From a virus, in the IMG/VR virus record IMGVR_UViG_3300036820_000646, positions 1-52,214 of that record: DNA of 52,214 nt. One strand, written 5' to 3'. Below, one piece after another: positions 383 to 41,350 of this stretch. Position 1 is the stretch's first letter. Each line of letters starts with the position of its first letter. Under the pieces are notes generated by a model. It saw only the letters and a program-made list of their open reading frames with translations, was not told the origin of the DNA and ran no database searches. The position numbers and the translations under genes were made by a program.

Positions 383-1087
383 CTACGCCAGTCCGCGGGC
401 CCGCTGGGCGCCGACCGTGTTGGCCAGGGCCGCATCAGTGCCCATTTCGACGGCCAGCTCGATACCGACTAAGTATCTCTCTGTTTCAGCGACAGCTCCA
501 GCCAGGTCCTCGTGATCTCTCAGGGCGATCTCGTCGCGCTCGCGTTGTTCCTTGACGAACTTCGCTATCTCGTCCATCACCCGCTTGTTCGATCGACCTT
601 CGTCTGCTCCACTTGTCAGCATCATCTGACCCGAGTTGAGTCCCCACAGCGTCGATGAAGCCAAAGCCCACCCCTGGCGGCCGTCAACGTGAAACGTTCC
701 ACCGTCGTACTCGACAAGGACCGCGTTTGGCTCAAGCATGGCCACCGCGCTGCGGATGTCGACTTCCCCGCGGTCACGCCACGCGGCCGAGTCTTCGTCC
801 GAGAGAGCTGACAGGTTCGGGCGTCGCCCTTTGGCCCGCGCTCGACGTGTCAGTCGGTCATACTCGAAATTCCAGCCACCCTTGTAGAGCGGATCGGTGA
901 GCGCATACGACACCGTGTCATTTCCGTTGTCCACGATGTCGACGCGGTACACGATGCCATCGATCACTGCTCCGACCGTGCGACGTAGGTTGCCGGCGAT
1001 CTCGACTGTCGCCTCTGGATTCGACGACGGTGCGAATTGACCACCCGTGGATTGTCCCTTCGGTCGGCGGTTCGTGACGGCAGACAT
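383..1087 (-). CDS. Tagged protein 1, function unknown
   Basis: This 234-residue protein begins at ATG 1087 behind a good AAGGAG site. Residues about 6-30 carry the shared tag (NRRPKG...GGQFAPSSNPEATVE). The body is unlike the other tagged proteins. It has a beta-rich middle (VYRVDIVDNGNDTVSYALTD; VLVEYDGGTFHV) and an alpha-helical charged C-terminus (about residues 165-225). I recognise no enzyme motif. It is the last tagged gene of a five-gene operon and starts 12 bp after the gene at 1100-1570 stops, so it is very probably co-transcribed. Existence as a gene is well supported by the start site, the tag and operon packing. Function is open. Confidence 0.8.
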   Translation of the reverse strand: MSAVTNRRPKGQSTGGQFAPSSNPEATVEIAGNLRRTVGAVIDGIVYRVDIVDNGNDTVSYALTDPLYKGGWNFEYDRLTRRARAKGRRPNLSALSDEDSAAWRDRGEVDIRSAVAMLEPNAVLVEYDGGTFHVDGRQGWALASSTLWGLNSGQMMLTSGADEGRSNKRVMDEIAKFVKEQRERDEIALRDHEDLAGAVAETERYLVGIELAVEMGTDAALANTVGAQRARGLA

Positions 1088-1099
1088 TGGATCTCCTTC

Positions 1100-1570
1100 T
1101 TAAGCTGACTTGGCTTCGGGTGGCATGTGGACGATCTCGGCAACCATGCAGAACGAATCGAGGACTTCGGAATCAATGAGGCGGGGGAAACCGCGTCTGA
1201 CTTCTTCCTCTATCGCCTCAACCTTGGAGCGACCTTCCTCGCAGGCGTAATCGTTGCCACCGCCTTCACCACTGTTGGAGACGTCGATCCTGACGTCGCC
1301 CACGTTCAGGTATCCAGACCAAGCGATGCCTCGCAACGTCTCGATCTCTGATGTGATCTTCATAGACGAACGACGGAGAAGCTCAAGTCCCTCCTCGTTC
1401 GGGTCGTACCATCCGCGCTCGTCGAGGTAACTGTGGATGCGAGAGACCGCGACCTCCATTGTCAGTGGAGGCGCACGGAGTTCGCTTAGCTCGACGGTCG
1501 GTTCCGGGTTCGCGCTCGGCGCGAATTGCCCTCCTACATTCGTACCCTTGGGTTCGCGTTTGAAGGTCAT
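1100..1570 (-). CDS. Tagged protein 2, function unknown
   Basis: This is a 156-residue acidic protein. Its start ATG overlaps the stop of the upstream gene as ATGA, so translation is probably coupled. Residues 4-28 are the tag (KREPKG...GGQFAPSANPEPTVEL). The rest is mixed helix/strand with an acidic stretch (SNSGEGGGNDYACEEGRSKVEAIEEEV), and residues about 40-55 look helical. There are two cysteines and no recognisable catalytic motif. It sits fourth in the five-gene tagged operon. I do not recognise a family. Confidence 0.78.
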   Translation of the reverse strand: MTFKREPKGTNVGGQFAPSANPEPTVELSELRAPPLTMEVAVSRIHSYLDERGWYDPNEEGLELLRRSSMKITSEIETLRGIAWSGYLNVGDVRIDVSNSGEGGGNDYACEEGRSKVEAIEEEVRRGFPRLIDSEVLDSFCMVAEIVHMPPEAKSA

Positions 1571-1989
1571 AATTGCTCCCGTGCTGCGCCGAGCTGATCG
1601 GCGGCTTCTTTTAGATCACTTACCAGACCTAAGGCGATCGCTTCCCGCTCCGGGGTGTTGGCGCCAACGTGTCCGAGGTAATCGGCTTTCGTATTGAGCT
1701 CGTCTAGCCATTCGTAAAGATCGCCCGTGGCAGCCTCCTGCTCGGCGATCTCCCTTGAGTATCCGATGATCTCCCCCACTCGAGCAAAGTCGTTCCTGCT
1801 GCCTTGGCCCCCACGGATTCGCTCGACGATGGCGGCCGCGTTGCGCAGCGCCTCGCTGACGTTGTCGCGAGTGATGGCCCAAGGGGCAAAGTAGCCGACC
1901 TCGACGTCGACGGCTGCTTCTGGATTCGACGTTGTCGCGAACTGTCCACCGCCGATGGTGCCTTTGGGCTTACGGTTAGTGGTCATCAT
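1567..1989 (-). CDS. Tagged protein 3, helical, function unknown
   Basis: This is a 140-residue protein starting with ATG ATG, the first overlapping the previous stop as ATGA. The tag covers residues 5-29 (NRKPKG...GGQFATTSNPEAAVDV). The body from about residue 40 is predicted almost wholly helical (NVSEALRNAAAIVERIRGG; REIAEQEAATGDLYEWLDEL), with a hydrophobic heptad-like pattern that suggests a small helical bundle. No cysteines and no known motif are present. It is the third gene of the tagged operon, flanked by overlaps on both sides. Confidence 0.78.
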   Translation of the reverse strand: MMTTNRKPKGTIGGGQFATTSNPEAAVDVEVGYFAPWAITRDNVSEALRNAAAIVERIRGGQGSRNDFARVGEIIGYSREIAEQEAATGDLYEWLDELNTKADYLGHVGANTPEREAIALGLVSDLKEAADQLGAAREQL

Positions 1990-2909
1990 TCGCCATCAAC
2001 GATTCTGAATCGGATGTCGCCGATTTGGAACTCGCCGGCGTCTTTGTCGTACGTCAACTCCGACGCCCGTCCGAAGTCCATCCAAGAGTAAACGTCGCGA
2101 TCGGCTCCGGACTTGCGGGTACGCATCGCAAACGAACCCGTCTGCACTTTGGTGACTGGACGCTTCAGTCCGACCACTTCAGGCCAGCGAGGGTTCTGCA
2201 CAACCTCGATGACGGTGCCTACTTTGATCGTCCTCTTCAGGTCGGCCATCGTTCCCGTCTTGTGCAGCGCCGGCAGCGAAGGATCGATGACCGGCGCGTG
2301 GAACTCCTCCACCTTGGCTTGTCCGTAGTACCTCACGTCGAAGTAGTCGGTCATCACATCCGAACCGTCATGGTTGTACGTGTCGTGTATCGCCTGAATC
2401 GTTTCGCGGACTCGCGTGCCTTCTTCGCTCTCGTGCGCGGCGCCCGCACAGCGCCAGTCATGTTGACCGGGCTTGCAGCTCGAGGGGACCGTGCGTGCGC
2501 CAAAGTCCAACTCCCCCGTGCACCGACTGTCGTCGGCGGGAACTGTTGCTCCGGCCCAGTTGCTTACCTTTATGTCGATCGACGCGCCACCTGCGTACTT
2601 CTGAGTCGTCACACTGATGTCAGCGTCCTTGGGTAGGCCACCGTTCGCGACCGCCTGCTTGATGTCCTGGCGCATGAGTCCGGCGATCTCGGTGACGCCA
2701 AGATTCCTCGCGTCTTCGTATTTGGCCCCGTAGCGACGTTCGTATGGACGGCGCGGCCGCGTTTCTGGCTGACCAAGGACGAGCGGCGCGCTGTCGACGA
2801 TCACAATCGTTGGCTCGACGAAGTCCACTTGCGCTTCTGGGTTCTCAGACGGTGCGAACTGTCCTCCGACAGGCACGCCTCGGGGTTGGCGGTTTTGAGC
2901 GGTTGTCAT
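1986..2909 (-). CDS. Tagged protein 4, function unknown
   Basis: At 307 residues, this is the largest member of the left tagged operon. The ATG overlaps the preceding stop (ATGA). The tag is at residues 7-31 (NRQPRG...GGQFAPSENPEAQVDF). The middle resembles small phage/plasmid proteins that hold a beta-sheet with 'DISVTTQKYAGGASIDIKVS' (about 98-117), followed by an insert with three cysteines (CTGELDF, SSCKPGQHDWRCAGAAH) that could bind a metal. 'YNHDGSDVMTDYFDVRYYG' at about 190-210 resembles the large-polyvalent-protein class of plasmid proteins, but I cannot assign a family. The C-terminus (about 225-307) looks like a small beta-barrel (TVIEVVQNPRWPEVVGLKRPVTKVQ). Confidence 0.78.
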   Translation of the reverse strand: MTTAQNRQPRGVPVGGQFAPSENPEAQVDFVEPTIVIVDSAPLVLGQPETRPRRPYERRYGAKYEDARNLGVTEIAGLMRQDIKQAVANGGLPKDADISVTTQKYAGGASIDIKVSNWAGATVPADDSRCTGELDFGARTVPSSCKPGQHDWRCAGAAHESEEGTRVRETIQAIHDTYNHDGSDVMTDYFDVRYYGQAKVEEFHAPVIDPSLPALHKTGTMADLKRTIKVGTVIEVVQNPRWPEVVGLKRPVTKVQTGSFAMRTRKSGADRDVYSWMDFGRASELTYDKDAGEFQIGDIRFRIVDGE

Positions 2910-3568
2910 CGCGTCACCGTCGAGTCGTACTCATCGTTGAAAGGCTGCTTAGTGATGTAGTAACCGACCGCGTCTTCACGAATTCCGTTGACGAGTACTT
3001 CATCGCCAAGCTCATCGATCACCGAGGACCACACGTGGTCCGACGGCTGTGACTTGACGAACGCGAGGTCAGTGCCGGACGTCTCGAACGTGCCGCCGTA
3101 ACGCTCATCAAGTGAGTCGTCGGAACCACGGACGGGGTGAGGAATCGGCTCGTAGAGGTCCGCGAAGTCATCCCGGTTCATCTGGCGGTTGAACGACTCC
3201 TCCTCGTCGTACGGAGCGATCTCGTCAACCACCTCCATGAAGGATTCAGCCAGCGGTTCAAACATGCGGCTGTCGCGATCGGCTTCGGCGAGGAACCTGT
3301 CGGCGACCGCGCGCCACTGCTCGGGCGTGAGATCGCGATCACCGTCGTAGTAGCCACGGTTCCTGAACCAATAGAGAGCCGGCTCGTCGTCTGGCAGGTT
3401 CGCTAGCTGCGCTCGAAGCTCTCCGACCGTTGGCCCCTCATAACCCTCGTACGGATTTACCAACGCGCGGCCGAGATCGACGGTGGCTTCCGGGTTCGTC
3501 GACGCGGCGAACTGCCCACCTGCGTCGGCGCCTTTGGGCACGCGACTTTGTCCATTGAGATCTCCCAT
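2906..3568 (-). CDS. Tagged protein 5, function unknown; first gene of tagged operon
   Basis: This 220-residue protein starts at ATG 3568 with AAGGAG four bases upstream. Residues 8-32 carry the tag (SRVPKG...GGQFAASTNPEATVDL). The body is strongly acidic, with many Asp/Glu and aromatic residues (LPDDEPALYWFRNRGYYDGDRDLTPEQ). It has a helical region at about 85-130 and no recognised motif. 'TVGELRAQLANLPDDEPALYWF' resembles short motifs in phage proteins, but I would not name it. It is the promoter-proximal gene, and box A lies directly ahead of its start codon. The next four genes follow with ATGA overlaps or a 12-bp gap. Confidence 0.8.
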   Translation of the reverse strand: MGDLNGQSRVPKGADAGGQFAASTNPEATVDLGRALVNPYEGYEGPTVGELRAQLANLPDDEPALYWFRNRGYYDGDRDLTPEQWRAVADRFLAEADRDSRMFEPLAESFMEVVDEIAPYDEEESFNRQMNRDDFADLYEPIPHPVRGSDDSLDERYGGTFETSGTDLAFVKSQPSDHVWSSVIDELGDEVLVNGIREDAVGYYITKQPFNDEYDSTVTR

Positions 3569-3576
3569 GTCTCCTT

Positions 3577-3604
3577 TGATGGGAGTTCTTCTCGCAATCG
3601 GCCA
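3577..3604 (-). promoter_or_regulatory. Box A copy 1, upstream of tagged operon
   Basis: The minus strand reads TGGCCG-N11-AACTCCCATC, ending in CATCA exactly 8 bases before the ATG of the first tagged gene. Two other copies with the identical 11-base spacer and identical 8-base distance to the start codon occur at 31565-31592 and 41359-41386. Promoter or operator is the natural reading. Confidence 0.75.
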
Positions 3605-5477: not shown

Positions 5478-5873
5478 CTACCTTCGACTCGGTTGTCTCC
5501 CGATGATCTCGACTGGCGTTCCGGGTGGGAAGTAACCGCGTCGGCGTCGCTCCAATCGACGAGTGGCAAAGACACTCGGGATCTTCGAGCCCTTCGTGAG
5601 GTTGTGCCGAGCGCAGAGTGCAACGAAGTTTGACATGCTCGTAGCGCCGCCCTTGGAGTGGGGAAAGTGATGATCTCCGTGGGTCGGTGCGTTGGTACAG
5701 CGACGTCCGAAGATGTTGAAGTGTTCGCATTGATTCCCCGCGCGGAGGAACCCGCTCGTCCTCTCAGAGAGCGAGAAGATTCTCTTGGGATCGAGATGAG
5801 CTCCCTGTCCCCGGCGTGTCGCGAGCAAGGCCACCACTACTGCGGCAACGATCAAACAGAAGTCGTGGCTCAT
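5478..5873 (-). CDS. HNH endonuclease with N-terminal membrane segment
   Basis: This is 131 residues. An N-terminal hydrophobic stretch (LIVAAVVVALLA, residues 7-18) could be a signal anchor. The HNH core follows: Cys49, Cys59, then DHHFPHSKGG (67-76), SNFVALCARHN (81-91) and KGSK. The DHH...N...H pattern with flanking cysteines is the usual His-Me finger with a structural zinc. HNH nucleases serve in restriction, recombination or competence; a membrane-tethered or exported one is uncommon. The ATG lies one base past the stop of the upstream gene, so translation is coupled to the Thr-rich membrane protein. The pair may act at the cell surface (inference). Confidence 0.78.
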   Translation of the reverse strand: MSHDFCLIVAAVVVALLATRRGQGAHLDPKRIFSLSERTSGFLRAGNQCEHFNIFGRRCTNAPTHGDHHFPHSKGGATSMSNFVALCARHNLTKGSKIPSVFATRRLERRRRGYFPPGTPVEIIGRQPSRR

Positions 5874-5874
5874 G

Positions 5875-6543: not shown

Positions 6544-6578
6544 GGTCTGCTCCCGATGTTTGCGTTACAAGAAAAGGG

Positions 6579-6632
6579 TCTGCCGCCCGTACATCTCGCC
6601 AAGGAGGGTAGGAGAGAAATACGGGCGGCAGA
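6579..6632 (-). terminator. Probable terminator after ssb
   Basis: A 13-bp perfect stem, TCTGCCGCCCGTA (6579-6591) with its complement at 6620-6632, with a 28-base loop. In the ssb direction it is followed by CCCTTTTCTTG. The long loop lowers confidence, but position and T-rich tail fit a terminator. Confidence 0.55.
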
Positions 6633-6650
6633 GTTCATGCGTGACAGCGA

Positions 6651-7091: not shown

Positions 7092-7166
7092 GCTGGTACT
7101 TCCTTCTGCTCAATCGAGCTGCGTTGAGTAGGTGATTTACCTGCTCGATCTCCTATGGATTGAGAT

Positions 7167-10100
7167 CTAAACCAGTGGCGGATTTCTTGGAATCCTGCGG
7201 AAACCACTGAATTCATGCACCTCGATGGTCGTTCGGGCCAGCGAGCGCGTTGGACGCGCCAGAGAGGTGCGCTGGGGCGTTGATGCCACGGAGGGTGCCG
7301 GCGTCGTAAGAAGAGAACGAGCCTCAAACTGAGGTTTCTCAGCGGCCGGGTAGTCGAAGCCATCGTCGTCGTATTCAGATGGGTCGATGAACTCGAGTTC
7401 GATCGCATCTACCGCGTCGTCGAGCGACGCAACGCTCTTCGCAGCGACAGCGAGACGTTCGTGGCGTGGCTTGTCGAAAAGAGTTGGCGCGTCTGGGGCC
7501 GTGTCGTCAACGACGGCGGTCTCGTCGTTGATAGGGAACGACCAGATCGAGTTGACCACGAGCTCTTTGACCGACACCTCTTCGGTGTCTGCACCTTCGT
7601 CAGTGTCGCGCTGGTATGGCGTCTTGGTCTTGACGATTCCGTCGATGCCGATGATGTCGCCGACCTTGGGCACCGTGCCACTACGCACGATCTTGTCGAG
7701 TGTGGTGTTCCATACGACGCAGTCGATGGTCGACTTTGTGCCAGAGAGCCGCATCTTGGCGAAGCTCGTCTTGCGCTTCAAAACCTCCCATGACGTGACC
7801 AGCCCGATCGTGCTCACGTTGCCCTCGTCTGGCAACCGATGTAGCGCAACGGGGACGTTGCGAGTCTGAGGCGATCGCCAAGTCTTGATCTGATCCTTGA
7901 ACACGCTGAGCGGATCGGCGGAGACGAGGATTCCGAGTCGGTCGCGCTCGCGGACGGAATACTCGAGAACGCCCCACTCCGATTTCGAGACGGTGGCGCC
8001 TGGGTTCTTGCGAAGGGTTTCGAGTGCGTCAAACATCCCCTTGCGAGTACCAAAGGCGTCGAACGCCCCCGACTCGATGAGCGCTCGTAGGACAGTGATG
8101 GAGACGCGGCGAGTCCCATTTGTGACCCTGACGCGGCTTGCGAAGTCGGCCAGAGACTTGAATGGGCCGTGAGCGGTGCGTTCCGCCACGATCTCGGCGG
8201 CGACAGTTCCCACGTCGCGAATCTTCGACAAACCGAAGAGCACGACTCCGTCGTCACCGACCGTTGGGTAGGCATCGCTCCGGTTGACGTCCGGGTGACG
8301 CAGCTCGACTCCCTCTTCTCTCAGCGAGGCGAGAAAGGCGAGGCGCTTCTCCTGGTTATCTGAGATCGACAGCCAACCGGCGGCGTACTCAGTCGGGTAG
8401 TTCGCCTTCAGCCATGCAGTGATGAACGACAGGCGCGCGTAACCAACCGAGTGTGACTTGTTGAACGAGTACTCCCCGGCCGACTTCATTGCCTCCCAGA
8501 GGTTCTCCGCGGTGCGCGCGGCGAAGGCCAACTTGGGCTCGCCTGCCATGTCGACGTTGGCTTGAGCACCTTTGATGAACAGTTCCCCCGAGCGGTTCAT
8601 CTTCTCGCGGTCCTTCTTGCCGATGGCCCTCAGGAGATTGTCACGCTCGGGCGGATTGAAGCCTGCGACCAACTCCGCGATGCGAAGCAACTGTTCTTGG
8701 TAGACCATGACGGCCAACGTCTCGTCCATGACGCTCGCGAGGATCTCCACTTCGGCGGGGATCTTCGTGAAGATGTCGTAACTGATCTTTTCGAGACCCG
8801 CTCTGCGGTTCGCGTACATGTCGTGCATACCGATGCCGAGCGGCCCTGGTCGATACAGCGCGATGAGGACGGCCAATTCGTCGACCGACGCCGGACGCAG
8901 TCGCCTAGCGAGGTCTTGTGTCCCTTGTCCTTCAATTTGGAAGATGCCCTCGGTGCGCCCCGCGCCGACCATCGTCCACGCCTTCTTCGCTTCGTCCGTG
9001 CCCGTGTCTGGAATGGTGTCGACGTCCAGATCGATGCCGTGGCGTCGCTTGATCTCGCGCACGGCCGCCTCCACGACGTCGAGGTTGGCCAGACCGAGGA
9101 TGTCCATCTTCAAGAATCCGAGATCCTCCAGCGCCTCGCCGTCAAACTCGCTCACCCACCCGCCCGTGCCACCGGACTTCTCAGTACGCCGGTCACTCCG
9201 CAGCGGGATGAGGCCAACGAGCTCTTCATCGCCGATCACCACACCGCACGGGTGAATTGACTCGGTATTGACGACGCCCTCAAAGCGCTTGGCGATCTCG
9301 ATCACTGGCTCGCTGCCAGACTCGGCGGCCAGCTCACGAAAGCCTGCACCCGGAGCCCAGCCGGGGTCACTCAGAGCTTTGATGCTTGCGGTCTTGCCGT
9401 CTCCCAGCGTCGGTACCTGGTTAGCGAGGGCTACGCCCACCTGACTGGCGCCCAATACCTTGCCGGCGACTCGTAGAGAGTTCTTCGATAGTGAGTACCC
9501 CAGTGTGCCAATGAGACCGACCGAGTCCTTACCCCAGCGCTCAATGAGATAGTTGACGACCTCTTGGCGACGACCCTGCTCGAAGTCGGTGTCGATGTCG
9601 GGCATCTTGTTGCGCGTCGGGTTCAAGAAGCGCTCGAAAAGTAGACCGTGTGCCAACGGGTCGACGGCGATGATGCCCATGCAGAAGGAGACGCACGAGC
9701 CGGCCGCTGATCCACGCCCTGGTCCCACACGGATGCCTTGGGCTTTCGCCCAGTCGATCATGTCGGCGACGATGAGAAAGTAGTCAGAGAGTCCAGCGTT
9801 GGAGATGATGTCCAGTTCGTAGCGGAGGCGTTCCTTTACGACGCCGGGCAGTGGCGACGAGTATCGACGTATAGCCCCCGCTTTGACTTTCTCATGGAGC
9901 AATTCACTGGCCGAGCGCTCGTTGGTGGGATCGAACGTCGGGATGCGCAACCCGTGCTTTGGAAACATGGAGTACCCGCTGGCTCGCTCCGCGATGAGGA
10001 GAGTGTTGTCACAGGCGTCCTCGAATCCAGGCTGGTCGTCGAAGATGGCACGCATCTCTTGAGCGCTACGAAGATGGAAGCCGCTTCCGGTGAACCGCCA

Positions 10101-10871
10101 GCGCTTCGGGTCATCGAGTGTCTTGCCCGATGCCCCACACAGCCACGCGTCGTGGGCGTGTGAGTCCTCTGCACTGGTGAAGTGAGAGTCGTTCGTCGCG
10201 ACAACGCGCAGATCGTGACGCTTCGCAATATCCAAAAGGTCGGCGTTCAAACTGTCCTCGATCGCAATCCCGTGCGACATCACTTCAATAAAGAAGTTGT
10301 CCTTCCCGAATATCTCGAGGAGATCGCGCGCGGCCGCGTTGGCACCGTCCGTGTCCCCCAGCGCCAGTCGACTCTTGATCGCACCTCCGAGACACCCCGA
10401 CAGAGCAATCAGTCCCTCGGAGTTCTCGGCGAGTAGCGACAGATCCATGCGCGGCCTCGACCAAAAGGCGTCACCTTCGTGTGAGAGCGCGGACAGTCGC
10501 ATCAAGTTCTTGAGGCCGACCTCGTTCTCCGCCAACAACGTGAGGTGGGTGTACTTCGACTCCCCCGGTTCAGAGGTATCGGAAGCATTGCTGTCGTCGA
10601 TCGACTTGCGGCCAATCTCGCGACGGAGTCGTGCGTTGGACTCCCTGTCTTCAATGGCCATGTACGCCTCAATGCCGCCGATGAGAGACACCCCTCGTTT
10701 CGCTGCGGACTGGTGCGCCACGTAGAGACCGCTCAAATTGCCGTGGTCGGTAATGGCGAGCGCGCTCTGTCCGTCCGCGACCACCGCGTCAAAGAGGTCG
10801 TCAGGACGCGCGATCGAGTCGCGCACGCTGTGGGACGAGTGCGTGTGTAAGTGGACAAAGCCCTGAGCCAT
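7167..10871 (-). CDS. dnaE: DNA polymerase III alpha subunit (DnaE)
   Basis: This is a 1234-residue C-family replicative polymerase, near full length. ATG 10871 is preferred over the TTG three bases earlier because AAGGCG precedes it. The PHP domain opens the protein (FVHLHTHSSHS, ITDHGNLSG, about 6-47). The polymerase core has VGPGRGSAAGS (about 382-392) and the catalytic PDIDTDF (about 424-430). A helix-hairpin-helix and an OB fold (about 1000-1090) follow, then a divergent C-terminal tail. It would let the element replicate with its own polymerase or serve as an inducible mutasome-type DnaE2; the PHP motifs look intact. Box B lies just upstream. A plasmid-borne dnaE with its own ssb is notable. 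Confidence 0.95.
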   Translation of the reverse strand: MAQGFVHLHTHSSHSVRDSIARPDDLFDAVVADGQSALAITDHGNLSGLYVAHQSAAKRGVSLIGGIEAYMAIEDRESNARLRREIGRKSIDDSNASDTSEPGESKYTHLTLLAENEVGLKNLMRLSALSHEGDAFWSRPRMDLSLLAENSEGLIALSGCLGGAIKSRLALGDTDGANAAARDLLEIFGKDNFFIEVMSHGIAIEDSLNADLLDIAKRHDLRVVATNDSHFTSAEDSHAHDAWLCGASGKTLDDPKRWRFTGSGFHLRSAQEMRAIFDDQPGFEDACDNTLLIAERASGYSMFPKHGLRIPTFDPTNERSASELLHEKVKAGAIRRYSSPLPGVVKERLRYELDIISNAGLSDYFLIVADMIDWAKAQGIRVGPGRGSAAGSCVSFCMGIIAVDPLAHGLLFERFLNPTRNKMPDIDTDFEQGRRQEVVNYLIERWGKDSVGLIGTLGYSLSKNSLRVAGKVLGASQVGVALANQVPTLGDGKTASIKALSDPGWAPGAGFRELAAESGSEPVIEIAKRFEGVVNTESIHPCGVVIGDEELVGLIPLRSDRRTEKSGGTGGWVSEFDGEALEDLGFLKMDILGLANLDVVEAAVREIKRRHGIDLDVDTIPDTGTDEAKKAWTMVGAGRTEGIFQIEGQGTQDLARRLRPASVDELAVLIALYRPGPLGIGMHDMYANRRAGLEKISYDIFTKIPAEVEILASVMDETLAVMVYQEQLLRIAELVAGFNPPERDNLLRAIGKKDREKMNRSGELFIKGAQANVDMAGEPKLAFAARTAENLWEAMKSAGEYSFNKSHSVGYARLSFITAWLKANYPTEYAAGWLSISDNQEKRLAFLASLREEGVELRHPDVNRSDAYPTVGDDGVVLFGLSKIRDVGTVAAEIVAERTAHGPFKSLADFASRVRVTNGTRRVSITVLRALIESGAFDAFGTRKGMFDALETLRKNPGATVSKSEWGVLEYSVRERDRLGILVSADPLSVFKDQIKTWRSPQTRNVPVALHRLPDEGNVSTIGLVTSWEVLKRKTSFAKMRLSGTKSTIDCVVWNTTLDKIVRSGTVPKVGDIIGIDGIVKTKTPYQRDTDEGADTEEVSVKELVVNSIWSFPINDETAVVDDTAPDAPTLFDKPRHERLAVAAKSVASLDDAVDAIELEFIDPSEYDDDGFDYPAAEKPQFEARSLLTTPAPSVASTPQRTSLARPTRSLARTTIEVHEFSGFRRIPRNPPLV

Positions 10872-10879
10872 CAAACGCC

Positions 10880-10903
10880 TTATGTGCCGAGGCGACGATC
10901 AGT
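10880..10903 (-). promoter_or_regulatory. Box B copy upstream of dnaE
   Basis: Minus strand ACTGA-N14-CATAA, ending 8 bases before the dnaE ATG. It shares the exact 14-base spacer with copies at 15245, 30417 and 47018. Only the last base differs (A for G). Confidence 0.65.
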
Positions 10904-11023
10904 ACTGGCCTAGCCCTCACTCCTTTGTTTATCGAGGTTTTTGAATCTGATGAGACGGCCTCTACCCGAATCAGCATCCGCACTATGGGCGGAGGATTGA
11001 GCGAGCGAAAGTAGATTCGTCCC

Positions 11024-26167: not shown

Positions 26168-26626
26168 TTAAACCCGTCGATTGAGCACCATCGCGTAGTA
26201 GCCGCGTCCCCCATTAACGAATCGCCCGGCAGCTACGAAGCCGCTCGAGTGGTGCAGCGCGAACGCAGCACTGTTCTCCATCTCACACGCGAGGACTGGC
26301 ACTCCTCCTTCTGCACGAATCGCGCTGATCGCTGCGCCAACCAGTGCTCCGCCGACGCCACGGCGTCGATAGTCGCTTGCGACGAAGATTCTCCCAAGAG
26401 AGACCGCGTCACTCAGATCGCTAAGCGCGTCCTTGATCGGTGACCACAACTTCCCCCAGCCGACGTGCCCAACGGCCAGGTGTTGATTGTCGATCGCCAA
26501 GAGACGCTGCTCGTAGGCTCGCTCCTCTTTCAATATCGACTCGATCTCCGGGTGCAATGTCATTCGACCGATACAGTCACTGGCGTCGACGATGTCGTGC
26601 GTCCAATACTTCACGGCCGTGGTCAT
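26168..26626 (-). CDS. GNAT family N-acetyltransferase
   Basis: This is 152 residues; its ATG overlaps the stop of the HerA-like gene (ATGA). The GNAT core is clear: LGRIFVASDYRRRGVGGALVGAAI with the acetyl-CoA pyrophosphate loop RRRGVGGAL (about 88-96), then a helix, then LACEMENSAAFALHHSSGFVAAGRF for motif B. The substrate is unknown. Coupling to the ATPase gene suggests the acceptor may be a protein of the element, or the gene may simply be cargo. Confidence 0.82.
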   Translation of the reverse strand: MTTAVKYWTHDIVDASDCIGRMTLHPEIESILKEERAYEQRLLAIDNQHLAVGHVGWGKLWSPIKDALSDLSDAVSLGRIFVASDYRRRGVGGALVGAAISAIRAEGGVPVLACEMENSAAFALHHSSGFVAAGRFVNGGRGYYAMVLNRRV

Positions 26627-30488: not shown

Positions 30489-31556
30489 TCAGAGAAGGCC
30501 GAGACGAGTGCTGCGTCCGCGTAAGTAGTCACGGGCCCGCGCGACACTGGGCATGAATTCACGACGCGCGCTCACCTTGGCGGGGCATCGGTGCGATTCG
30601 GTCGCGTAAGCGCGCAGACACTTGCCGCACTCCTTTACCTCCACGCGTTCAGACTGCCCTCGAATCATCTGATTGAAGATTCGGCCCGGAGCCTCCGACT
30701 GCGCAACGCGCATGAATGCGGCGATGGGGACCTTAAACCCGTAGAGCCGCGATCCACCTTTGTTGGACTCCGTAGCCATGACCATCGTCCCCGTGACCTT
30801 TTCGTATGCCACCCCGGAGATCCACGAAGAGCTCACTGACTTGACCGGTACGCCGAGCTGGGCGGCGCGCTGACGCCGGCGCTCGAGGATGTCTCCGACC
30901 TCGGCTAACGCGCGACTGGGCCGACGCGACTCGAGGACGCACTGAACCGACTCGGCAACGTAGGCCGACTGATCGGGCGTGAAGCCGAGGCCCTGCGTGG
31001 CCCATGATCCATCTTCACCGCGCGCGACACGGACCCAGCCATCGAACTGCCCACCGGGAAACTGCGCCGAGACCGGCACGTCGAATGTGTCACCACTGTC
31101 TTTGCCGGGAACGTTCGCCAGGGAGAAGTCCTTGATCGCCGCCGCCGAGGGCATCCGAATGGCCACCTGGTCATTCGCGTAGGCCATGCGGTGTGTGCGC
31201 CGATGTCCAGCGATGGAGTTGCCACCCGTGTGCTGGGGTGTCCAGTCATCGGGCATCTGGGCGTAGCCCCCCTCGGGGTGGTTGTACTCACCGGCAGCCA
31301 TGTGTCGGTCCCACCACTCACGCCGATGCGCGGTTGAGTTGGGATCGACGAGGAGCGGTGCGGTCGCGGCGGGCACGTAACCCATCAGGCTCAGAGCCTC
31401 GACGCGCTCGCGGAGGAACTCTCGAGGGTCGACGGGGATAAGCGTCGGTGTGGGCTGGTCGTTGAAGAGGTCGACTTGCGCTTCTGGATTCACAGAGGCC
31501 GCGAACTGTCCCCCAGTCGTTTGACCCTTGGGTTGACGTGATCGATCCTTGTCCAT
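30489..31556 (-). CDS. Tagged protein 6 with KTSC-like domain and zinc motif
   Basis: This is 355 residues from ATG 31556; a longer in-frame start would read through box A and is rejected. The tag covers residues 5-30 (SRQPKG...GGQFAASVNPEAQVDL). Residues about 240-301 match the KTSC pattern: SSSWISGVAYEKVTGTMVMA, then SRLYGFKVPIAAFMRVAQS and GRIFNQMIRG. KTSC is a small domain named for lysyl-tRNA synthetase C-termini and common in phage and plasmid proteins. A CxxC...HxC motif (Cys310, 313, His322, Cys324) follows. The N-terminal half has 'EWWDRHMAAGEYNHPEGG'. This is the only tagged protein here with a recognisable body domain besides the sigma-like one. Confidence 0.8.
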   Translation of the reverse strand: MDKDRSRQPKGQTTGGQFAASVNPEAQVDLFNDQPTPTLIPVDPREFLRERVEALSLMGYVPAATAPLLVDPNSTAHRREWWDRHMAAGEYNHPEGGYAQMPDDWTPQHTGGNSIAGHRRTHRMAYANDQVAIRMPSAAAIKDFSLANVPGKDSGDTFDVPVSAQFPGGQFDGWVRVARGEDGSWATQGLGFTPDQSAYVAESVQCVLESRRPSRALAEVGDILERRRQRAAQLGVPVKSVSSSWISGVAYEKVTGTMVMATESNKGGSRLYGFKVPIAAFMRVAQSEAPGRIFNQMIRGQSERVEVKECGKCLRAYATESHRCPAKVSARREFMPSVARARDYLRGRSTRLGLL

Positions 31557-31564: not shown

Positions 31565-31592
31565 AGATGGGAGTTAAATCACGCAACGGCCA
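31565..31592 (-). promoter_or_regulatory. Box A copy 2
   Basis: TGGCCG-N11-AACTCCCATC followed by T. CATCT ends exactly 8 bases before ATG 31556. The sequence is conserved with copies 1 and 3 although the flanking and spacer bases differ. Confidence 0.75.
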
Positions 31593-34574: not shown

Positions 34575-35432
34575 TTACTCCTCGCTGCGGAATTTCTCTC
34601 GATTGAACCACGCAGAGCTGATCTCACTCAGCCGGTATTTCTTTTCGACATCCAGTATCGTCGTGACCTCGCCTGACGTCATCACGAATTCGCGCAAGGC
34701 AACCTCGGTTTGGACTTGGCTCGACATCTTGAATGTCTGGAGCCAGATCGCGTGTAGTCGCGTGACGTCGCGCAGATTCTCCAACTCAATCAAACCAATG
34801 CCGTAACGAATGCGATCGATGTATTGCTTGCGCGTCTTCCACTCTGCTTTCACCGCTGCGGATTCTTCGGGGTGCTTACGAATGAATCTCGACGTCAGCG
34901 TGGGCTGACTCCTTTCCCACTTCTCAAACTCGTCTTCGTAAATGGTCAGGTCGCGCCCGTACCTATCGGCGTTCTGGACGTTCGCCAACGCGGAGTCGTG
35001 CAGAACACAGCGGGCCCAGTGGTCCACGATCTGCTCCACATCGGAGTAAGAGGGTGGATACTGCCAGCTACCGCCAGCCATCTCGAGTCGACCTCCGAGT
35101 TGAATGGCCGGCTTCTGCTCGGGCGCAAAACGAGACGCGTCGGACTCAAAGAAATGGTCGTCGCTCAAGCTGGCACGAAACGACGCTTCCATACCTTCAA
35201 GAATCGCTGCCTCGTCGCTGGGCTTGTCTCTCTTAGCGGCCGCTGCAATGGCTTCCTCGCGTTTGCGGGCCAACTCCTCAGCGGCTTTGCTCCCATCTAA
35301 CTCAGCCAATTCTGCTCCCAGATCCACATTCGGTTCCGAGATTACTTCTTTCCTTTGAGCGAAACGACCTCCCGCCCTGGTGCCTCGCGGCTGACGCGGC
35401 ACGTTCGGTTTTTCAATAAATCTCTCTACCAT
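34575..35432 (-). CDS. Tagged protein 7 (divergent tag), function unknown
   Basis: This is 285 residues. ATG 35432 lies 7 bp inside the previous gene. The tag at about 11-39 is recognisable but altered: PRQPRGTRAGGRFAQRKE, then SEPNVDL, with GGQFA changed to GGRFA and NPEA lost. A charged helical segment (GAELAELDGSKAAEELARKREEA) and a mostly helical body follow, with no cysteine motif. It has no box A of its own because it sits at the end of the type IV secretion operon. The divergence suggests it is either older or under weaker constraint. Confidence 0.75.
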   Translation of the reverse strand: MVERFIEKPNVPRQPRGTRAGGRFAQRKEVISEPNVDLGAELAELDGSKAAEELARKREEAIAAAAKRDKPSDEAAILEGMEASFRASLSDDHFFESDASRFAPEQKPAIQLGGRLEMAGGSWQYPPSYSDVEQIVDHWARCVLHDSALANVQNADRYGRDLTIYEDEFEKWERSQPTLTSRFIRKHPEESAAVKAEWKTRKQYIDRIRYGIGLIELENLRDVTRLHAIWLQTFKMSSQVQTEVALREFVMTSGEVTTILDVEKKYRLSEISSAWFNREKFRSEE

Positions 35433-35971
35433 TCGCTCGTCCCCTGTGTCGGTGCTGGCGCTTCGTCCTCTTCACTGTCTTCACTCATCAGGTCTGTAAC
35501 GAGCGCCCAATTCCAGAGACTGACGAACCGACCTTCGTCCACATCGGTAATGACTCCAGCCTCGGCCAAGAATCGGAAAAAGATCGCCGTCCCAATGAGA
35601 TCGTCTCCGACGAGATCGCGCGTCTCAAACTCAACCACCCCCCGAGGGTCATATTGACCCCAGACGGCATCCACGAGTTCGTCGCGGCTCCTGCCGAGGT
35701 ATTCACTCCAGAGATCTCTCGACGACTGTGCGGTCTGGTCTCGGACCCACCCTCGAAACGCCTCCAACACGCGTCGAGCAGATTGATTTCCCGGATCATC
35801 CATGTAGTTGGCGATTCGTTGGTCGTCCGATCCGATGGCGATCAGCAGTGCGATCGTCGGAAGAGCAAGGACGTTGTCCACGAGGACAAGATCGATAGGA
35901 AAGCCCGCCGGCGAAATGAGACCGGTGAGGTCCTCAAATTCATCGTTGAGATCTTTGGTTTCTGTGCTCAC
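35426..35971 (-). CDS. Acidic unknown protein (181 aa)
   Basis: GTG 35971 overlaps the stop of the VirB6-like gene (TAGTG). Strongly acidic, with a hydrophobic segment (FPIDLVLVDNVLALPTIALLIAIGSDD, about 24-50) and a helical region (SARRVLEAFRGWVRDQT). The C-terminus is Asp/Glu/Pro-rich. A cytoplasmic accessory of the transfer channel is plausible from context only. No family is recognised. Confidence 0.68.
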   Translation of the reverse strand: MSTETKDLNDEFEDLTGLISPAGFPIDLVLVDNVLALPTIALLIAIGSDDQRIANYMDDPGNQSARRVLEAFRGWVRDQTAQSSRDLWSEYLGRSRDELVDAVWGQYDPRGVVEFETRDLVGDDLIGTAIFFRFLAEAGVITDVDEGRFVSLWNWALVTDLMSEDSEEDEAPAPTQGTSEW

Positions 35972-38892
35972 TATTTGTCTCCAATCGGCAATGGCTCACC
36001 GCGCTTGAACGCTTCAATGCGACGCTGTTGAATGTCGAGGCGGCGGGCAGCTTCATCGTGTGCGTCTCGCTCGGCTTGGCTCAACTCGAAACGATGCCGT
36101 GCAGCGCGCTCAGCGTCTTCTTGTTTTGCCGCGGCCTCATTTGCTCGCATCGACTCCGCGTCGGCTGTGGCCTTCTTATTTCGCGCCTCTTCGTCTGCTT
36201 TGAAGGCACGGTAGTCCTGAAGATTCTTTTGGGCTCGCAGCGGCGCGTCTTTCAGGTAGTTACGCAGTTTGTGGGCTCCGTAGACCAGTCCAGCTCCCGC
36301 CGCGACCGGAGCACCAAATCCCAAGAGCCCGGCGGCCCCGAGGCCGGCCGTACCGTACTTGAGCACTTTCGGAGCCTTCTTGACGGTCGCTTTGGCTCCC
36401 GCACCCGCTGCGGCTGCCGTAAGGACACTCCCCTTCAAGCGGTGAGTTTGACCTTCTCCATCTCTCTGGTTGAACCGCTTCCTCGAGCGCGCCAAGCTCT
36501 CCTTGATGCGAGCCCTACGAGTCACTTCAGGCTCGCCCCGTTCGGCCTTCGCCGTGCGAGGGTGCAGCACGCTGTTACTCATCTGCTCGATCCGCTTCGT
36601 GCGCTCAGCGATCCGTTCGGCTCGAGCATGCTGATTGGCCTGGTGCTGTTCGTCATCGCGGAGTTTCGGTCGACGCGCCTTGGCGAACATAGAGCCGGCC
36701 CCGGTTGCTGCTCCCTCAACAACGGGACGAGCCCCATCGGTACTGCCGGGCGACTTCGGGTCAACCGGTGTTGCCGTCGCTGCGCCCGTCTGCGCGGGTG
36801 CAGCGCCAGTCTTCGTCTGACTCGCACCCATCGAACCATTGGTTTGTGACGGACCAGACTTCGTCTTCTGTCCGCTGATCCGTCCGCGAGCGGCGCCGAC
36901 AGCCTGACCGCCGCGACGCTTCATGTGATCGAGCACATCGACCCCTACGGCAGCGGAGCCGAAGCCTCCCATCGCACCAGCGAACGCTGCCGCCCCCTTC
37001 ATCGAGAACGGGCTGGGGGCCTTAAGAACCTTGGTGATGAATAGACGAACAAGATAGAGCGCGGCGACAGGAGAGATCGTGATGAAGATCTGCGAGAAGA
37101 GTGATCCTGCCCCGGTCGCTTGTGTCCCCATCGCGGCGAGGACTGCCGTGATGATGGCTACAAAACTCAGAATCAGTCCCGCACACGTCGAAAACAAGAT
37201 GAGCCCGAAAAGGTGCTTCACGTACGCACTGAAGCGACCTTCCATCGTCGGCATCAATGCGAATATGAGCATCAACGGGAGCAAGATCATCAAGATGATG
37301 AGTGACAGTTTCGCGATGATAAGGGCGAGGGCAAGAACACCAAAGACAACCAGGATCACCGTTGAGCTCAAGAGGAAGAAGAACGCACTGGCCTCCGCTC
37401 CAGAGTTCTGAGTGCCGTGCAGGTTGCCGATGAAGTTCGCTATGCCGGTTCCGGCAGCGGATGAGTTCGTCGAAGTGGCGATCGCTGACGCAGAGTCGCC
37501 CCAGTTGAAGACTCCCAAGTCTGGGTTGAGGATCTGTCCGGGCCACGGTGCAGCGCTGGGGCTCGCGAAAGGACCGCTCGCATCGCCGTACTGGCCGCCG
37601 CTCGCAGGAGCGTTGGCTGACCAAAACGTCTGACAGTCGGCCCCATTGACCGTCGATGTCCCGGACGTCGTTGGTGAGGGCACTGTCGTGAATGCAGCGG
37701 TGGTCAATTTTCCCGTGGAGATGTCCCATTCCGAAGGTGTAAATCCGCTGCCACCAGATCCATTCGCTGGGCTTTGGCACGCGGCCCAGGCGACCATAGA
37801 TTCGTCTTCTTGGTCGTTGGTGAGTGCACCGTTCCAAGCGAGCGCGGACGCTTGAGTGACGCCGAAGGAGCTCAAATTTGAATCACCTGACAGCGAGCCC
37901 GACGCCTTGGCGACGGCCAACTGAGAAGCGGGCTGGATGCCGGCATTGTCCTCGAGTAGGTGGCAGTACATCAAGGGCGCGTAGTTGTTCGATGCGCCGA
38001 ACTGCTCGTCTTCATAGGTAGGAATCGCCGCTTGCTCCCAGAGGGAGTTCAAGGAAGTCGGCACTACGTATCCGTAACTACCGGTGGCTGTGTACGCCTT
38101 CTGGTACTCGTCAACCAACTCTTGGCTGTACCAGTAGCAACTGAGCGGATCGCTCTTCGCAATGGTCTCCTGGGTTGAGCCACCGATCGTGGCATTGGCG
38201 ACATTGGAAATCGCATTCGCCGGGCCGCTCGCAACATCGGAGATCGCGTTGTATCCGGTTTGAATGATCCACGCAGGGCTTAACGGAACGTCGTCGGTCG
38301 CGGTGGATGCCATTGCCGCGCCAACGATCGTGAACAGGATCGCCACCACCACCATGAACTTGATGATCTGACGGAAGAAGTTCCCACGGCCGCGGAGGGC
38401 ACGCCACGCCAGCGTGACAAGGGCCAAGACTGCCAAGACACCAAGCAGTGGGGACGTCGTAATTCCGGTCCCGAGCTTTCCCGCGAACGTGTTTGCCATC
38501 TCGCCCACGGTGTTGGCGAAACAGAACTGACTGGCTCCTTCGGTCGCGGAGGCGGCGAGCTGCCATTCCGATGCACCAATCGAGGTCATGCCGCCCACGA
38601 AGACTGACCTGTCGATGGAACTTGGCGCATTCGAGATCCCGCTCAGAAATCCGCCGGGCAAGCGTTCGTGCTCATCGCCGAGCGAACCCGACCAGCGGTT
38701 GATGGGCAGGTCGTTGTCCGCCGCCGTGGCGCTCGACGCTGTCGTGCCACAGATGAGTCCGGTCTGAGTCCCTGTGGTGTTGGTTGGCGTTGTGCTCGCA
38801 GCCCCTGCCGGTCCAGATGACAGAAGTAGCGCGAAGAGTGGAACAACTATGACGCCGAGTGCGGCAATGCGACGGTGTCGAACGTTTCTCAT
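35971..38892 (-). CDS. VirB6/TrbL-like polytopic conjugation protein
   Basis: This is 973 residues. ATG 38892 has AGGG upstream. A signal sequence (about 10-32) is followed by an extracellular stretch with cysteines, then transmembrane helices at about 148-166 and 176-196, a large outer loop, and a second cluster of four or five helices at about 500-640 (FFFLLSSTVILVVFGVLALALIIAK, SLIILMILLPLMLIFALMP). A charged cytoplasmic tail of about 330 residues follows, rich in Arg/Glu/Ala. This layout fits the large VirB6-like subunits of Gram-positive type IV secretion. It lies in the operon with the pilin-like and PrgI-like genes. Confidence 0.82.
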   Translation of the reverse strand: MRNVRHRRIAALGVIVVPLFALLLSSGPAGAASTTPTNTTGTQTGLICGTTASSATAADNDLPINRWSGSLGDEHERLPGGFLSGISNAPSSIDRSVFVGGMTSIGASEWQLAASATEGASQFCFANTVGEMANTFAGKLGTGITTSPLLGVLAVLALVTLAWRALRGRGNFFRQIIKFMVVVAILFTIVGAAMASTATDDVPLSPAWIIQTGYNAISDVASGPANAISNVANATIGGSTQETIAKSDPLSCYWYSQELVDEYQKAYTATGSYGYVVPTSLNSLWEQAAIPTYEDEQFGASNNYAPLMYCHLLEDNAGIQPASQLAVAKASGSLSGDSNLSSFGVTQASALAWNGALTNDQEDESMVAWAACQSPANGSGGSGFTPSEWDISTGKLTTAAFTTVPSPTTSGTSTVNGADCQTFWSANAPASGGQYGDASGPFASPSAAPWPGQILNPDLGVFNWGDSASAIATSTNSSAAGTGIANFIGNLHGTQNSGAEASAFFFLLSSTVILVVFGVLALALIIAKLSLIILMILLPLMLIFALMPTMEGRFSAYVKHLFGLILFSTCAGLILSFVAIITAVLAAMGTQATGAGSLFSQIFITISPVAALYLVRLFITKVLKAPSPFSMKGAAAFAGAMGGFGSAAVGVDVLDHMKRRGGQAVGAARGRISGQKTKSGPSQTNGSMGASQTKTGAAPAQTGAATATPVDPKSPGSTDGARPVVEGAATGAGSMFAKARRPKLRDDEQHQANQHARAERIAERTKRIEQMSNSVLHPRTAKAERGEPEVTRRARIKESLARSRKRFNQRDGEGQTHRLKGSVLTAAAAGAGAKATVKKAPKVLKYGTAGLGAAGLLGFGAPVAAGAGLVYGAHKLRNYLKDAPLRAQKNLQDYRAFKADEEARNKKATADAESMRANEAAAKQEDAERAARHRFELSQAERDAHDEAARRLDIQQRRIEAFKRGEPLPIGDK

Positions 38893-38900
38893 TGCCCTAA

Positions 38901-38910
38901 ACCATGCGGC
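38901..38910 (-). promoter_or_regulatory. Box C copy 4 (GCCGCATGGT)
   Basis: In the 33-bp gap ahead of the VirB6-like gene. CATGG ends 9 bases before ATG 38892. Confidence 0.5.
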
Positions 38911-38925
38911 GATTCCGGCGTTTGC

Positions 38926-39455: not shown

Positions 39456-39913
39456 CGACTTCCTTTCTTTGCTGCGTTGCTTTTCACCATGCGGCGAGTT
39501 CTTGTGTCAGTCGACAAGATGGCCAAATCCCGGACACGACCGGCCCCACTAGGCACGGAACTAGCGACGACGTAACCAAACTGGTGTCGGAGGGGCTCAA
39601 TGGGACGTGAGCAGAGGAGAAAGGTCCCTGAGACCGAGCGCCGCACGTCAACGAAGCGTTGGTAGCGACGAAGTTGCAGCCCTGAACGACTGCGTGACTC
39701 GATGAACCAAAAGGCCAGCGCCTGAATGACGAGAATGCTCATCAATGCGTACGTGCCAAGGAACGTCCACAGAACTACGGTTGCGACGATGCCGGGGATC
39801 AGCGCGAAGCCGGCAATGGTGAGGCCCCGGACCGGTAGGTCGAAGCCTTGAATGACGACGCGGCGATGTTGATTGACCGACCTCGTGAGCGGAGTCAGCG
39901 TGTAAACGTTCAT
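39452..39913 (-). CDS. PrgI/VirB3-like conjugation protein
   Basis: This is 153 residues. The ATG overlaps the previous stop (ATGA). Two adjacent transmembrane helices at about 28-70 (LTIAGFALIPGIVATVVLWTFLG, YALMSILVIQALAFWFI) are preceded by a short N-terminus and followed by a basic cytoplasmic tail ending with RMVKSNAAKKGSR. That is the usual architecture of PrgI/VirB3-like proteins, which bind VirB4. The next gene overlaps by 4 bp. Confidence 0.7.
   Translation of the reverse strand: MNVYTLTPLTRSVNQHRRVVIQGFDLPVRGLTIAGFALIPGIVATVVLWTFLGTYALMSILVIQALAFWFIESRSRSGLQLRRYQRFVDVRRSVSGTFLLCSRPIEPLRHQFGYVVASSVPSGAGRVRDLAILSTDTRTRRMVKSNAAKKGSR
39486..39495 (-). promoter_or_regulatory. Box C copy 5 (GCCGCATGGT)
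   Basis: Inside the last codons of the PrgI-like gene, 31 bp upstream of the pilin-like ATG. The coding constraint makes this copy less certain as a control site. Confidence 0.35.
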
Positions 39914-40341
39914 TCACTCTCCGCCATTGAAAAGCCACCAACCATGACCAGCGAGTGCCGACGGAGTCGGTACATGGTGTCGGGCTTTACGCCCGTCTCC
40001 TCGTTCACGTCGGCGCTCACTACGTAGCGGATTCCGTTCTCATCCTCGCCCGCGATCACCAACGTGCCGCCAACGCCGGTGCGCGCGACGCCTTCAACGC
40101 CGACGATGGAGATCCCGCCGTCACCAGTGATAGCGATTCCTCGATCGCCCGCGACGGCATGACCTCGGTTTCCCGCGCGGGCGTAGCCGAGTTCGTCGGA
40201 GATGGAGGTGCCTTCATCGCCAGAGATGGACCGTCCGCGCACGCCCGTCACCGAGTGGCGGCCGTCGCTCGACACGGCGAGATGTGTTTGGGGGTGAATA
40301 TTTGAAATCAAGTCGTTGTTCTCTTCCGGATTAGACGGCAC
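39910..40341 (-). CDS. Octapeptide-repeat (beta-solenoid-like) protein
   Basis: About 143 residues from GTG 40341 (TTG 40311 is the alternative); the earlier in-frame ATG lies inside the previous gene and is rejected. Residues about 33-97 are eight tandem octapeptides of the form G-x-x-G-x-[AS]-x-[ATS]: GVRGRSIS, GDEGTSIS, (DELGYARA), GNRGHAVA, GDRGIAIT, GDGGISIV, GVEGVART, GVGGTLVI. Regular 8-residue Gly repeats like these form narrow beta-helices in other proteins. A small domain follows (IRYVVSADVNEETGVKPDTMYRL). It is the second gene of the secretion operon; a rod-like or surface role is inferred from shape alone. Confidence 0.72.
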   Translation of the reverse strand: MPSNPEENNDLISNIHPQTHLAVSSDGRHSVTGVRGRSISGDEGTSISDELGYARAGNRGHAVAGDRGIAITGDGGISIVGVEGVARTGVGGTLVIAGEDENGIRYVVSADVNEETGVKPDTMYRLRRHSLVMVGGFSMAESE

Positions 40342-41350
40342 GGCCCTCCACGCGACTAATTGCGACCTTCCACAGATCGGCGGCGTAATCGGGAAAACGA
40401 ATAAGGGTCTCGCAGGTAACGCGACGTTGCGCGTCGTCAAGATCACCGAACGGCGCGAAGAGAGATGAGGTTGTCTCGCCGGTCTTCATGTATTGCTCGG
40501 CGCAGGCCAACGCTCCCCCAGCGTCCATGACGTCAGCTCGAGCTCGAATGGCGGCCCGCTTGCCGATAGGCACATCGAGAGTAAGAGGAGCACCAGAGTG
40601 CTCGGCAATTGCATCCCACGCCAGTGCGCGGGCCTTGACCTGCTGACCGTCAGACTTCAGTTGAGAAGCGCGGTCGCCGAATGATCCTTCCTCAAAGTCG
40701 CTTATGTCAATTTCCGCTGAGCTAGTAGCGGCTTGGAAGGATGCAACCTCAACGTGGTCGATAGGGCGACTACCACCCTCCTTCGCCCTCGTGACGCTCC
40801 AGTCCAACCCGTGCGTCGTAGGTGCTGGGATGTGGAAGTTCTCACTGGGGCGTGAATGGGCAGGGATGGACAAGCGGATCTCGCTGGAGAGGTCCTCGAG
40901 TTCTTTCGCAGACAACGCGCGGGCCAGGCGGGCTTCACGTGAAGCCTTCTCCTGGTCGAACAATCGCATGGCGGCGAAGCGTTTGTGGTCTTTGCCTTCG
41001 AGCGCACGGATGATAGAGCGCTTAGCAATGAGCGAGGTAGGAATGGGGCCGGCCTCGGGCGGACGCGTCGCGTCGGCAACAGCGGCGTTCGCGGCGACAA
41101 GATATGCCAGCACCGCGTCTTGAACTAAGTCGTCTCCGTCCATGTAGCCGTTCAATTGCTTGTTCCCAAGTCCAAAGCGACGGACATAACTGCCGGCGAT
41201 ACGTCGTGTCTCCTCGGCGCCTTCGACGAGGTCGACGGTCGCTTCGGGGTTCTGAGACGGAGCAAACTGCCCACCAACTGGCACTCCGCGCGGCTGACGT
41301 GCTCGCGATCCGGGAGTTGTGGACGTGTGCTGGCGGCTGGAGGACTCCAT
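40331..41350 (-). CDS. Tagged protein 8 with sigma-70 region 2-like segment
   Basis: This is 339 residues from ATG 41350. The tag is at about 17-42 (ARQPRG...GGQFAPSQNPEATVDL). Immediately after it comes RRIAGSYVRRFGLGNKQLNGYMDGDDLVQDAVLAYLVAAN. 'DGDDLVQDAVLAYL' (71-84) strongly resembles the core-binding motif of sigma-70 region 2 (DDLVQEA.LAL). Downstream 'IPTSLIAKRSIIRALEG' sits where the -10 recognition helix would be, and 'ARALSAKELEDLSSEIR' resembles the start of region 3. A clear region 4 is not seen. It is the first gene of the type IV secretion operon and box A precedes it. A divergent sigma or anti-sigma-like regulator is my best reading. Confidence 0.68.
   Translation of the reverse strand: MESSSRQHTSTTPGSRARQPRGVPVGGQFAPSQNPEATVDLVEGAEETRRIAGSYVRRFGLGNKQLNGYMDGDDLVQDAVLAYLVAANAAVADATRPPEAGPIPTSLIAKRSIIRALEGKDHKRFAAMRLFDQEKASREARLARALSAKELEDLSSEIRLSIPAHSRPSENFHIPAPTTHGLDWSVTRAKEGGSRPIDHVEVASFQAATSSAEIDISDFEEGSFGDRASQLKSDGQQVKARALAWDAIAEHSGAPLTLDVPIGKRAAIRARADVMDAGGALACAEQYMKTGETTSSLFAPFGDLDDAQRRVTCETLIRFPDYAADLWKVAISRVEGRAV

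Follow-up and report, generated by a model that had tools for sequence, protein, structure and literature searches.

Tagged genes of the window

The window analysed here is the whole 52,214-nucleotide stretch of the IMG/VR virus record IMGVR_UViG_3300036820_000646. Sequence comparison places it in a family of conjugative-type megaplasmids, 375 to ~608 kb in size, found in Pseudarthrobacter, Paenarthrobacter, Arthrobacter and, more distantly, Curtobacterium. Five circular Micrococcaceae relatives of 375-440 kb served for comparison: pACHL01 of Pseudarthrobacter chlorophenolicus A6 and the megaplasmids of Paenarthrobacter YJN-5, Pseudarthrobacter BIM B-2242 and two Arthrobacter. Eight window genes, all on the minus strand with ATG start codons at 1087, 1570, 1989, 2909, 3568, 31556, 35432 and 41350, encode proteins carrying a short N-terminal sequence, referred to below as the tag.

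383..1087 (-): protein of 234 aa with the tag NRRPKGQSTGGQFAPSSNPEATVEI
1100..1570 (-): protein of 156 aa with the tag KREPKGTNVGGQFAPSANPEPTVEL
1567..1989 (-): protein of 140 aa with the tag NRKPKGTIGGGQFATTSNPEAAVDV
1986..2909 (-): tagged protein, 307 aa; tagged orthologues of the body (28-31% identity) on all five Micrococcaceae megaplasmids
2906..3568 (-): tagged 220-aa protein; ACTCCCATC lies 9 nt 5' of the ATG
30489..31556 (-): tagged protein, 355 aa, weakly KTSC-like; tagged orthologues (39-41% identity) on all five Micrococcaceae megaplasmids
34575..35432 (-): 285-aa protein whose tag is degenerate; weakly similar (24% identity) to a tagged family encoded beside the VirB6/TrbL-like gene
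40331..41350 (-): tagged protein, 339 aa, weakly sigma-like; tagged orthologues (25-29% identity) on all five Micrococcaceae megaplasmids

Seven of the eight proteins match the pattern R.P[KR]G...GGQFA, its arginine lying at about residues 5-19, and in these seven GGQFA is followed by NPEA or NPEP and then xV[DE]. The pattern was absent from 100 shuffled windows, and the corresponding DNA pattern occurred seven times against an expectation of 0.00. The first-pass annotation had assigned one motif to the eight genes and called the copy at 35432 degraded; its starts proved exact, while the gene at 1570 encodes NPEP rather than NPEA. The copy at 35432 is indeed degenerate (VPRQPRGTRAGGRFAQ...EPNVDL), yet was still matched by the tag profile (E=2.4e-4) and by a profile built from phage sequences only (E=1.7e-6). 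The bodies behind the tags had been described as non-homologous, and the data agree: a Pfam scan of the eight bodies gave nothing above cut-off. The KTSC-like and sigma-like labels are weak: one tagged pACHL01 orthologue matched KTSC (E=0.23) and another Sigma70_r2 (E=0.004), neither match reaching its curated cut-off. Between 1567 and 3568 the left-end tagged genes overlap their neighbours by a four-base stop/start and are therefore probably co-translated.

A conserved peptide on unrelated proteins

Using an iterated profile, 51 tag domains were counted on pACHL01, 47 on the BIM B-2242 plasmid, 39 on that of YJN-5, 34 on that of zg-Y1110, 27 on that of A. caoxuetaonis (a count that leaves out a 50 kb stretch) and seven in the window; these numbers are based on six-frame open reading frames (ORFs) and short profiles. 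By a stricter count the window and the five megaplasmids together have 196 tagged proteins, which fall into 64 unrelated body clusters, so that the tag is portable between unrelated bodies at the level of sequence. On pACHL01 about 49 of roughly 540 genes are tagged, and overall roughly a tenth of megaplasmid proteins carry the label. Plasmid gene starts were mostly taken as the nearest ATG, in agreement with the annotated pACHL01 starts where compared, and in all but one protein with an assigned start the tag begins 1-16 residues after the start codon.

The consensus spans about 25 residues, [AN]RQPxGIPxGGQFAATxHxEPxVxL, with the NPEA of the window corresponding to the HAEP of other tags. Glycines G6, G10 and G11 are invariant, and R2 (95%), F13 (95%), Q12 (91%) and A14 (90%) are nearly so. 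At the conserved columns all synonymous codons are present, in proportions near those of the bodies, indicating that selection acts on the peptide and not on the DNA. In orthologous pairs whose bodies are less than 35% identical, the tags share 53% identity, compared with 29% for the next 30 residues and 28% for the body. Tags on unrelated bodies are also 53% identical to one another, which argues for one constraint common to all carriers. Neither Pfam nor the PDB, the latter searched with the tag profile, gave a meaningful match to the motif, and searches of full-text papers with motif strings returned none. Two single-sequence AlphaFold models had a predicted local distance difference test score (pLDDT) of ~40, too poor for use.

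Tagged proteins on the plasmids are mostly single-body, with a median length of 270 aa, and the majority belong to no recognised family. The recognised bodies include enzymes (NAD-dependent DNA ligase, Fic, a PolyA_pol/HD CCA-adding/HD enzyme and the ParB-like nuclease ParBc_2) as well as DUF2958, DUF7007, LPD29, a helicase-associated domain and a weak sigma region 2. A stretch resembling a membrane span was found in none of the 196 tagged proteins, compared with 403 of 1,985 other genes (20%; p=2e-10 on the subset compared), and a membrane or secretion signal was rejected on this ground.

Tagged genes cluster beside conjugation genes

The element encodes ATPase and channel genes of a type IV secretion system (T4SS): a VirB4-like and a TrbL-like protein and an annotated conjugative DNA transfer (coupling) protein. 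Genes of the window that provide context are as follows.

7167..10874 (-): DNA polymerase III alpha, untagged; 36-39% identity to megaplasmid DnaE
12727..15237 (-): VirB4-like ATPase (AAA_10), untagged; 51-53% identity to VirB4 of the five Micrococcaceae megaplasmids
26623..29406 (-): P-loop ATPase with a LAGLIDADG/intein-like insert, adjoining the tagged gene at 31556; a possible coupling-type ATPase
35971..38892 (-): TrbL/VirB6-like protein, untagged; Pfam match just under cut-off; 27-30% identity to megaplasmid homologues

On each of the five megaplasmids tagged genes are most densely clustered directly downstream of the coupling-protein gene and a large FtsK-like gene. Of 189 tagged genes, 86 lie no more than 60 kb downstream of the coupling-protein gene, where ~27 would be expected, and four lie within the same distance upstream; the bias was seen on every one of the five. 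In three megaplasmids (at L011, L013 and L307) about 1.4-1.6 kb without annotated genes adjoins the coupling-protein gene, a candidate origin of transfer (oriT).

Genomes were searched with a larger tag profile, at most 21 candidates being scored in each. Any tag match was found in 30 of 398 Micrococcaceae genomes and at least 16 tags in four, and in a phylum-wide sample of 397 genomes matches were almost absent. Thus the tag is not equally common in chromosomal genes outside a mobile context, one of the two outcomes named in the first-pass annotation as refuting its reading; the other, a common fold through all bodies, was not found either. At the few Micrococcaceae loci read, low-copy 'chromosomal' tags sit in megaplasmid-like DNA. 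The co-occurrence with VirB4 that the first-pass annotation proposed to examine was observed: window-type VirB4 is present in five of the 398 Micrococcaceae genomes and in three of the four tag-rich genomes (P=4e-6).

A second tag form and a phage relative

Orthologues missed by the profile carry a second form of the tag at the same position (for example MTTFNEAAHPRNQAGVAGAGQFTSTAHAESGVTI and MTNFSENEHPRSGNGQFENKIHSESGVSL), and the form switches between orthologous plasmid proteins. A 607 kb Curtobacterium megaplasmid with related VirB4 and coupling proteins has 14 tags, mainly of this second form. Four consecutive second-form tags (FSEADHPR..GG.F) also occur at 5805-10907 of the Micrococcaceae contig L329; their bodies have no match on the megaplasmids examined.

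The first-pass annotation mentioned similar protein starts in other actinobacterial plasmids and phages, and phage relatives do exist. Scanning viral contigs of IMG/VR with a degenerate DNA pattern recovered at least 118 stretches, compared with five, none convincing, for a control pattern one base off. The motif on phage contigs reads (W/F)(D/N)ExxHPRxPxGxxxGGQFA. Its upstream part, (W/F/Y)(D/N/S/K)..(H/Q)P, with which the second plasmid form opens, was absent from the search pattern and precedes 40 of 90 distinct phage instances (shuffles: mean 0.1, maximum 2). A phage-only profile matched 80 plasmid ORFs at E<=0.01, including 77 members of the tag set, and no reversed proteins. The likeness of the plasmid and phage cores is partly built in because the pattern selected the core of the profile; this does not apply to the flanking part. 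The tag alone, in three versions, gave no tblastn match in named phage genomes even at E=10, probably because the query was too short, since the pattern scans of IMG/VR gave many matches.

Phage carriers include head-type proteins (portal, prohead protease and MuF/minor head proteins), ART-PolyVal, ADP-ribosyltransferase, Zeta toxin, the anti-CBASS protein Acb1, NUDIX, kinases and some endolysins. Here the motif often stands at domain joints and is followed by glycine-rich stretches. The 1,880-residue phage protein L231 has four copies between its modules, after the portal domain and around Zeta toxin and MuF.

A model for the tag

Taken together, these results are consistent with a model in which the tag is a docking label for proteins that go with the DNA of the element into the recipient, a reading in which recruitment and transfer are both inferred and to which we give a probability of about 0.45. 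The tag would be a docking peptide at the N-terminus, portable and probably unstructured, that recruits soluble proteins of giant conjugative plasmids to the DNA-export route, most likely at the coupling-protein end of the T4SS. Tagged enzymes and effectors, though unrelated to one another, would then enter the recipient alongside the plasmid DNA and aid its establishment. In phages, their form of the motif would perform the equivalent task of bringing cargo into the head. The first-pass annotation had already suggested an address label. The data fit that suggestion in part, since the label is short and N-terminal, sits on bodies unrelated to one another and is restricted to a mobile element that encodes T4SS genes; movement through the T4SS would be a further, putative step. 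Its further statement that an N-terminal T4SS signal would be new does not hold, as such signals have been reported (PMC11288057); what would be new is one conserved tag across dozens of unrelated proteins.

Plasmids and phage heads have in common that proteins enter a new cell with DNA, which matches the idea of polyvalent proteins, which phages and conjugative elements were predicted to inject together with their DNA (Iyer et al. 2017, PMC5512222). The carriers resemble these proteins in their phage and conjugative settings and in drawing on the same domain pool (LPD29, DUF2958 and the ParB-like nuclease ParBc_2 on plasmids; ART-PolyVal and MuF in phages). However, polyvalent proteins are large, with 2-15 disparate domains, an architecture seen in phage carriers such as L231 and not in the small plasmid carriers. 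Term searches of that text found no common short N-terminal tag on polyvalent proteins. That phages and conjugative megaplasmids use one common, widespread and so far undescribed short-motif delivery code for proteins accompanying DNA into the next cell is a tentative proposal, which we think rather less likely than not to be correct.

Other known systems are similar in part. The T4 capsid targeting sequence, an N-terminal peptide of ~10 residues, packages almost any protein, and T4 internal proteins in the head are delivered to the next cell (PMC7697877). Like the tag, it is a short N-terminal peptide on unrelated proteins; unlike the tag, which has 25 residues, it works in the prohead and is removed there. 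The two are likened here by role. Targeting of the T4 type needs capsid, scaffold and prohead protease, and capsid, portal and terminase genes are absent from the annotation of the part of pACHL01 read (1-400 kb of 427 kb). Plasmid proteins carried by an F-type T4SS number at least 16 (PMC11288057, PMC8406263). The signals of conjugative systems (F pED208, relaxase TSA/TSB; PMC8406263, PMC11288057) are plasmid-encoded, as is the tag, for which delivery through the channel is only inferred; they are C-terminal or internal and quite variable, whereas the tag is one conserved N-terminal sequence on dozens of proteins. MuF polymorphic toxins (PMC5576092) share MuF and variable toxin modules with carriers of the phage form, but no MuF domain is among the listed plasmid body families.

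Several points weigh against delivery. Phages have no T4SS, and one receptor therefore cannot explain both settings; the likeness of plasmid and phage motifs could be convergent or could mark something broader than export. Endolysin or peptidoglycan-binding families, which are not obvious injected cargo, are matched by five of the 68 phage carriers. Conjugative substrates known so far mostly have C-terminal or internal signals (PMC11288057). SSB and ParA, which would be expected to transfer, are without a tag in the window, and two genomes (G037 and G150), of which small stretches were read, have the VirB4 and no detected tag. Finally, proximity to the coupling-protein gene may reflect a leading region rather than a common partner.

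Alternative explanations

The tag could instead bind a plasmid-encoded scaffold or partner, such as a replication or partition focus, a chaperone or a protease adaptor, and gather proteins within the donor without transfer. Its behaviour is that of a short peptide for docking, carried by soluble proteins, and LigA, tagged on three megaplasmids and bearing a divergent tag on two more, is consistent with a replication focus. Against this, SSB and DnaE, the obvious members of such a focus, are untagged in the window, the densest clusters lie at the coupling protein and not at DnaE, and the phage relative occurs on head and effector proteins. We consider docking within one cell improbable, though it deserves to be taken seriously.

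A site of processing or unfolding, recognised by a protease or serving as a flexible start for unfolding, would separate domains and trim the N-termini of single proteins. The order portal, motif, Zeta, MuF, motif in L231, with glycine-rich stretches after the motif, suits this idea, as do the removal of the T4 capsid targeting sequence after packaging (PMC7697877) and the view that polyvalent proteins are processed by metallopeptidases (PMC5512222). Yet in plasmid proteins the tag sits at the very N-terminus, where cleavage would take off little, and the conserved H.EP.V.L beyond the GGQF core exceeds the needs of a cut site. We rate this account as quite unlikely.

Swapping of start regions (promoter, leader and first codons) among genes, with a peptide of no role, is disfavoured as very improbable. 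A start element, GCCGCACACA-N8-ATG, is common to many tagged genes, but about three-quarters of GCCGCACACA elements are not 5' of tagged genes, many tagged genes lack one, and the peptide is fixed while its codons vary; a DNA-level cassette was rejected on codon use and on the position of the elements. The motif G[CT]CG[CT]ACACA occurs in 105-128 copies per Micrococcaceae megaplasmid (reversed control, 0-7) and in Curtobacterium D40 too. In ~60% of copies an ATG follows 17-18 nt after the first base of the element, and about three-quarters are likewise not 5' of tagged genes. It resembles a promoter or start signal used across the plasmid, perhaps one for leaderless transcripts; pACHL01 has its own 990-aa sigma-70 protein (377249-380221). 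In the window, exact copies of ACTCCCATC occur only at 3578-3586, 31566-31574 and 41360-41368 (-), each 9 nt 5' of the ATG of a tagged gene without translational coupling, and possibly represent its own form of the start element.

That all bodies share a single conserved domain or fold, or that the tag is a low-complexity match due to chance, has next to no probability, given the 64 body clusters without homology past the tag, the lack of any Pfam domain over it, and the absence of matches in shuffled windows and reversed proteins.

The window and its megaplasmid family

The likeness of the window DnaE to megaplasmid DnaE places the window in this family. SSB, the VirB4-like ATPase, the TrbL-like protein, helicases, ParA, an AAA ATPase and four tagged bodies also have homologues on the five plasmids. 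The pACHL01-type megaplasmid, encoding SecY, SecE, SecG, LigA, DnaE, dUTPase, ribonucleotide reductase, a coupling protein (237792-240257 on pACHL01), T4 pili and Tad pili, is an unusually self-sufficient replicon. A phage origin of the window was rejected: structural phage genes were not found, and its 'terminase' PHROG matches sit in intein-like segments, with LAGLIDADG/homing-endonuclease matches, of a helicase (43297-47010) and the P-loop ATPase (26623-29406). These segments may explain the viral classing of the record, which may itself be a fragment; relatives of the window VirB4 and of the protein at 30489 were not found in IMG/VR. At 11024-12715 (+), on the strand opposite to its neighbours, lies a Peptidase A4 family protein with a signal-peptide-like start.

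The tag has no entry in the databases searched. Even as a mere docking tag, a label on about one-tenth of the proteins of a replicon, retained even where body identity has fallen below 35%, is unusual. If it is a delivery label, the list of tagged genes would give ~50 candidate proteins for dispatch by a giant plasmid to a new cell, the majority without known function and a few probably aimed at host defences. One motif, fusable to reporters, would then link phage and plasmid effector delivery, and, should the two share a delivery code, whole injected repertoires would be identifiable from sequence alone.

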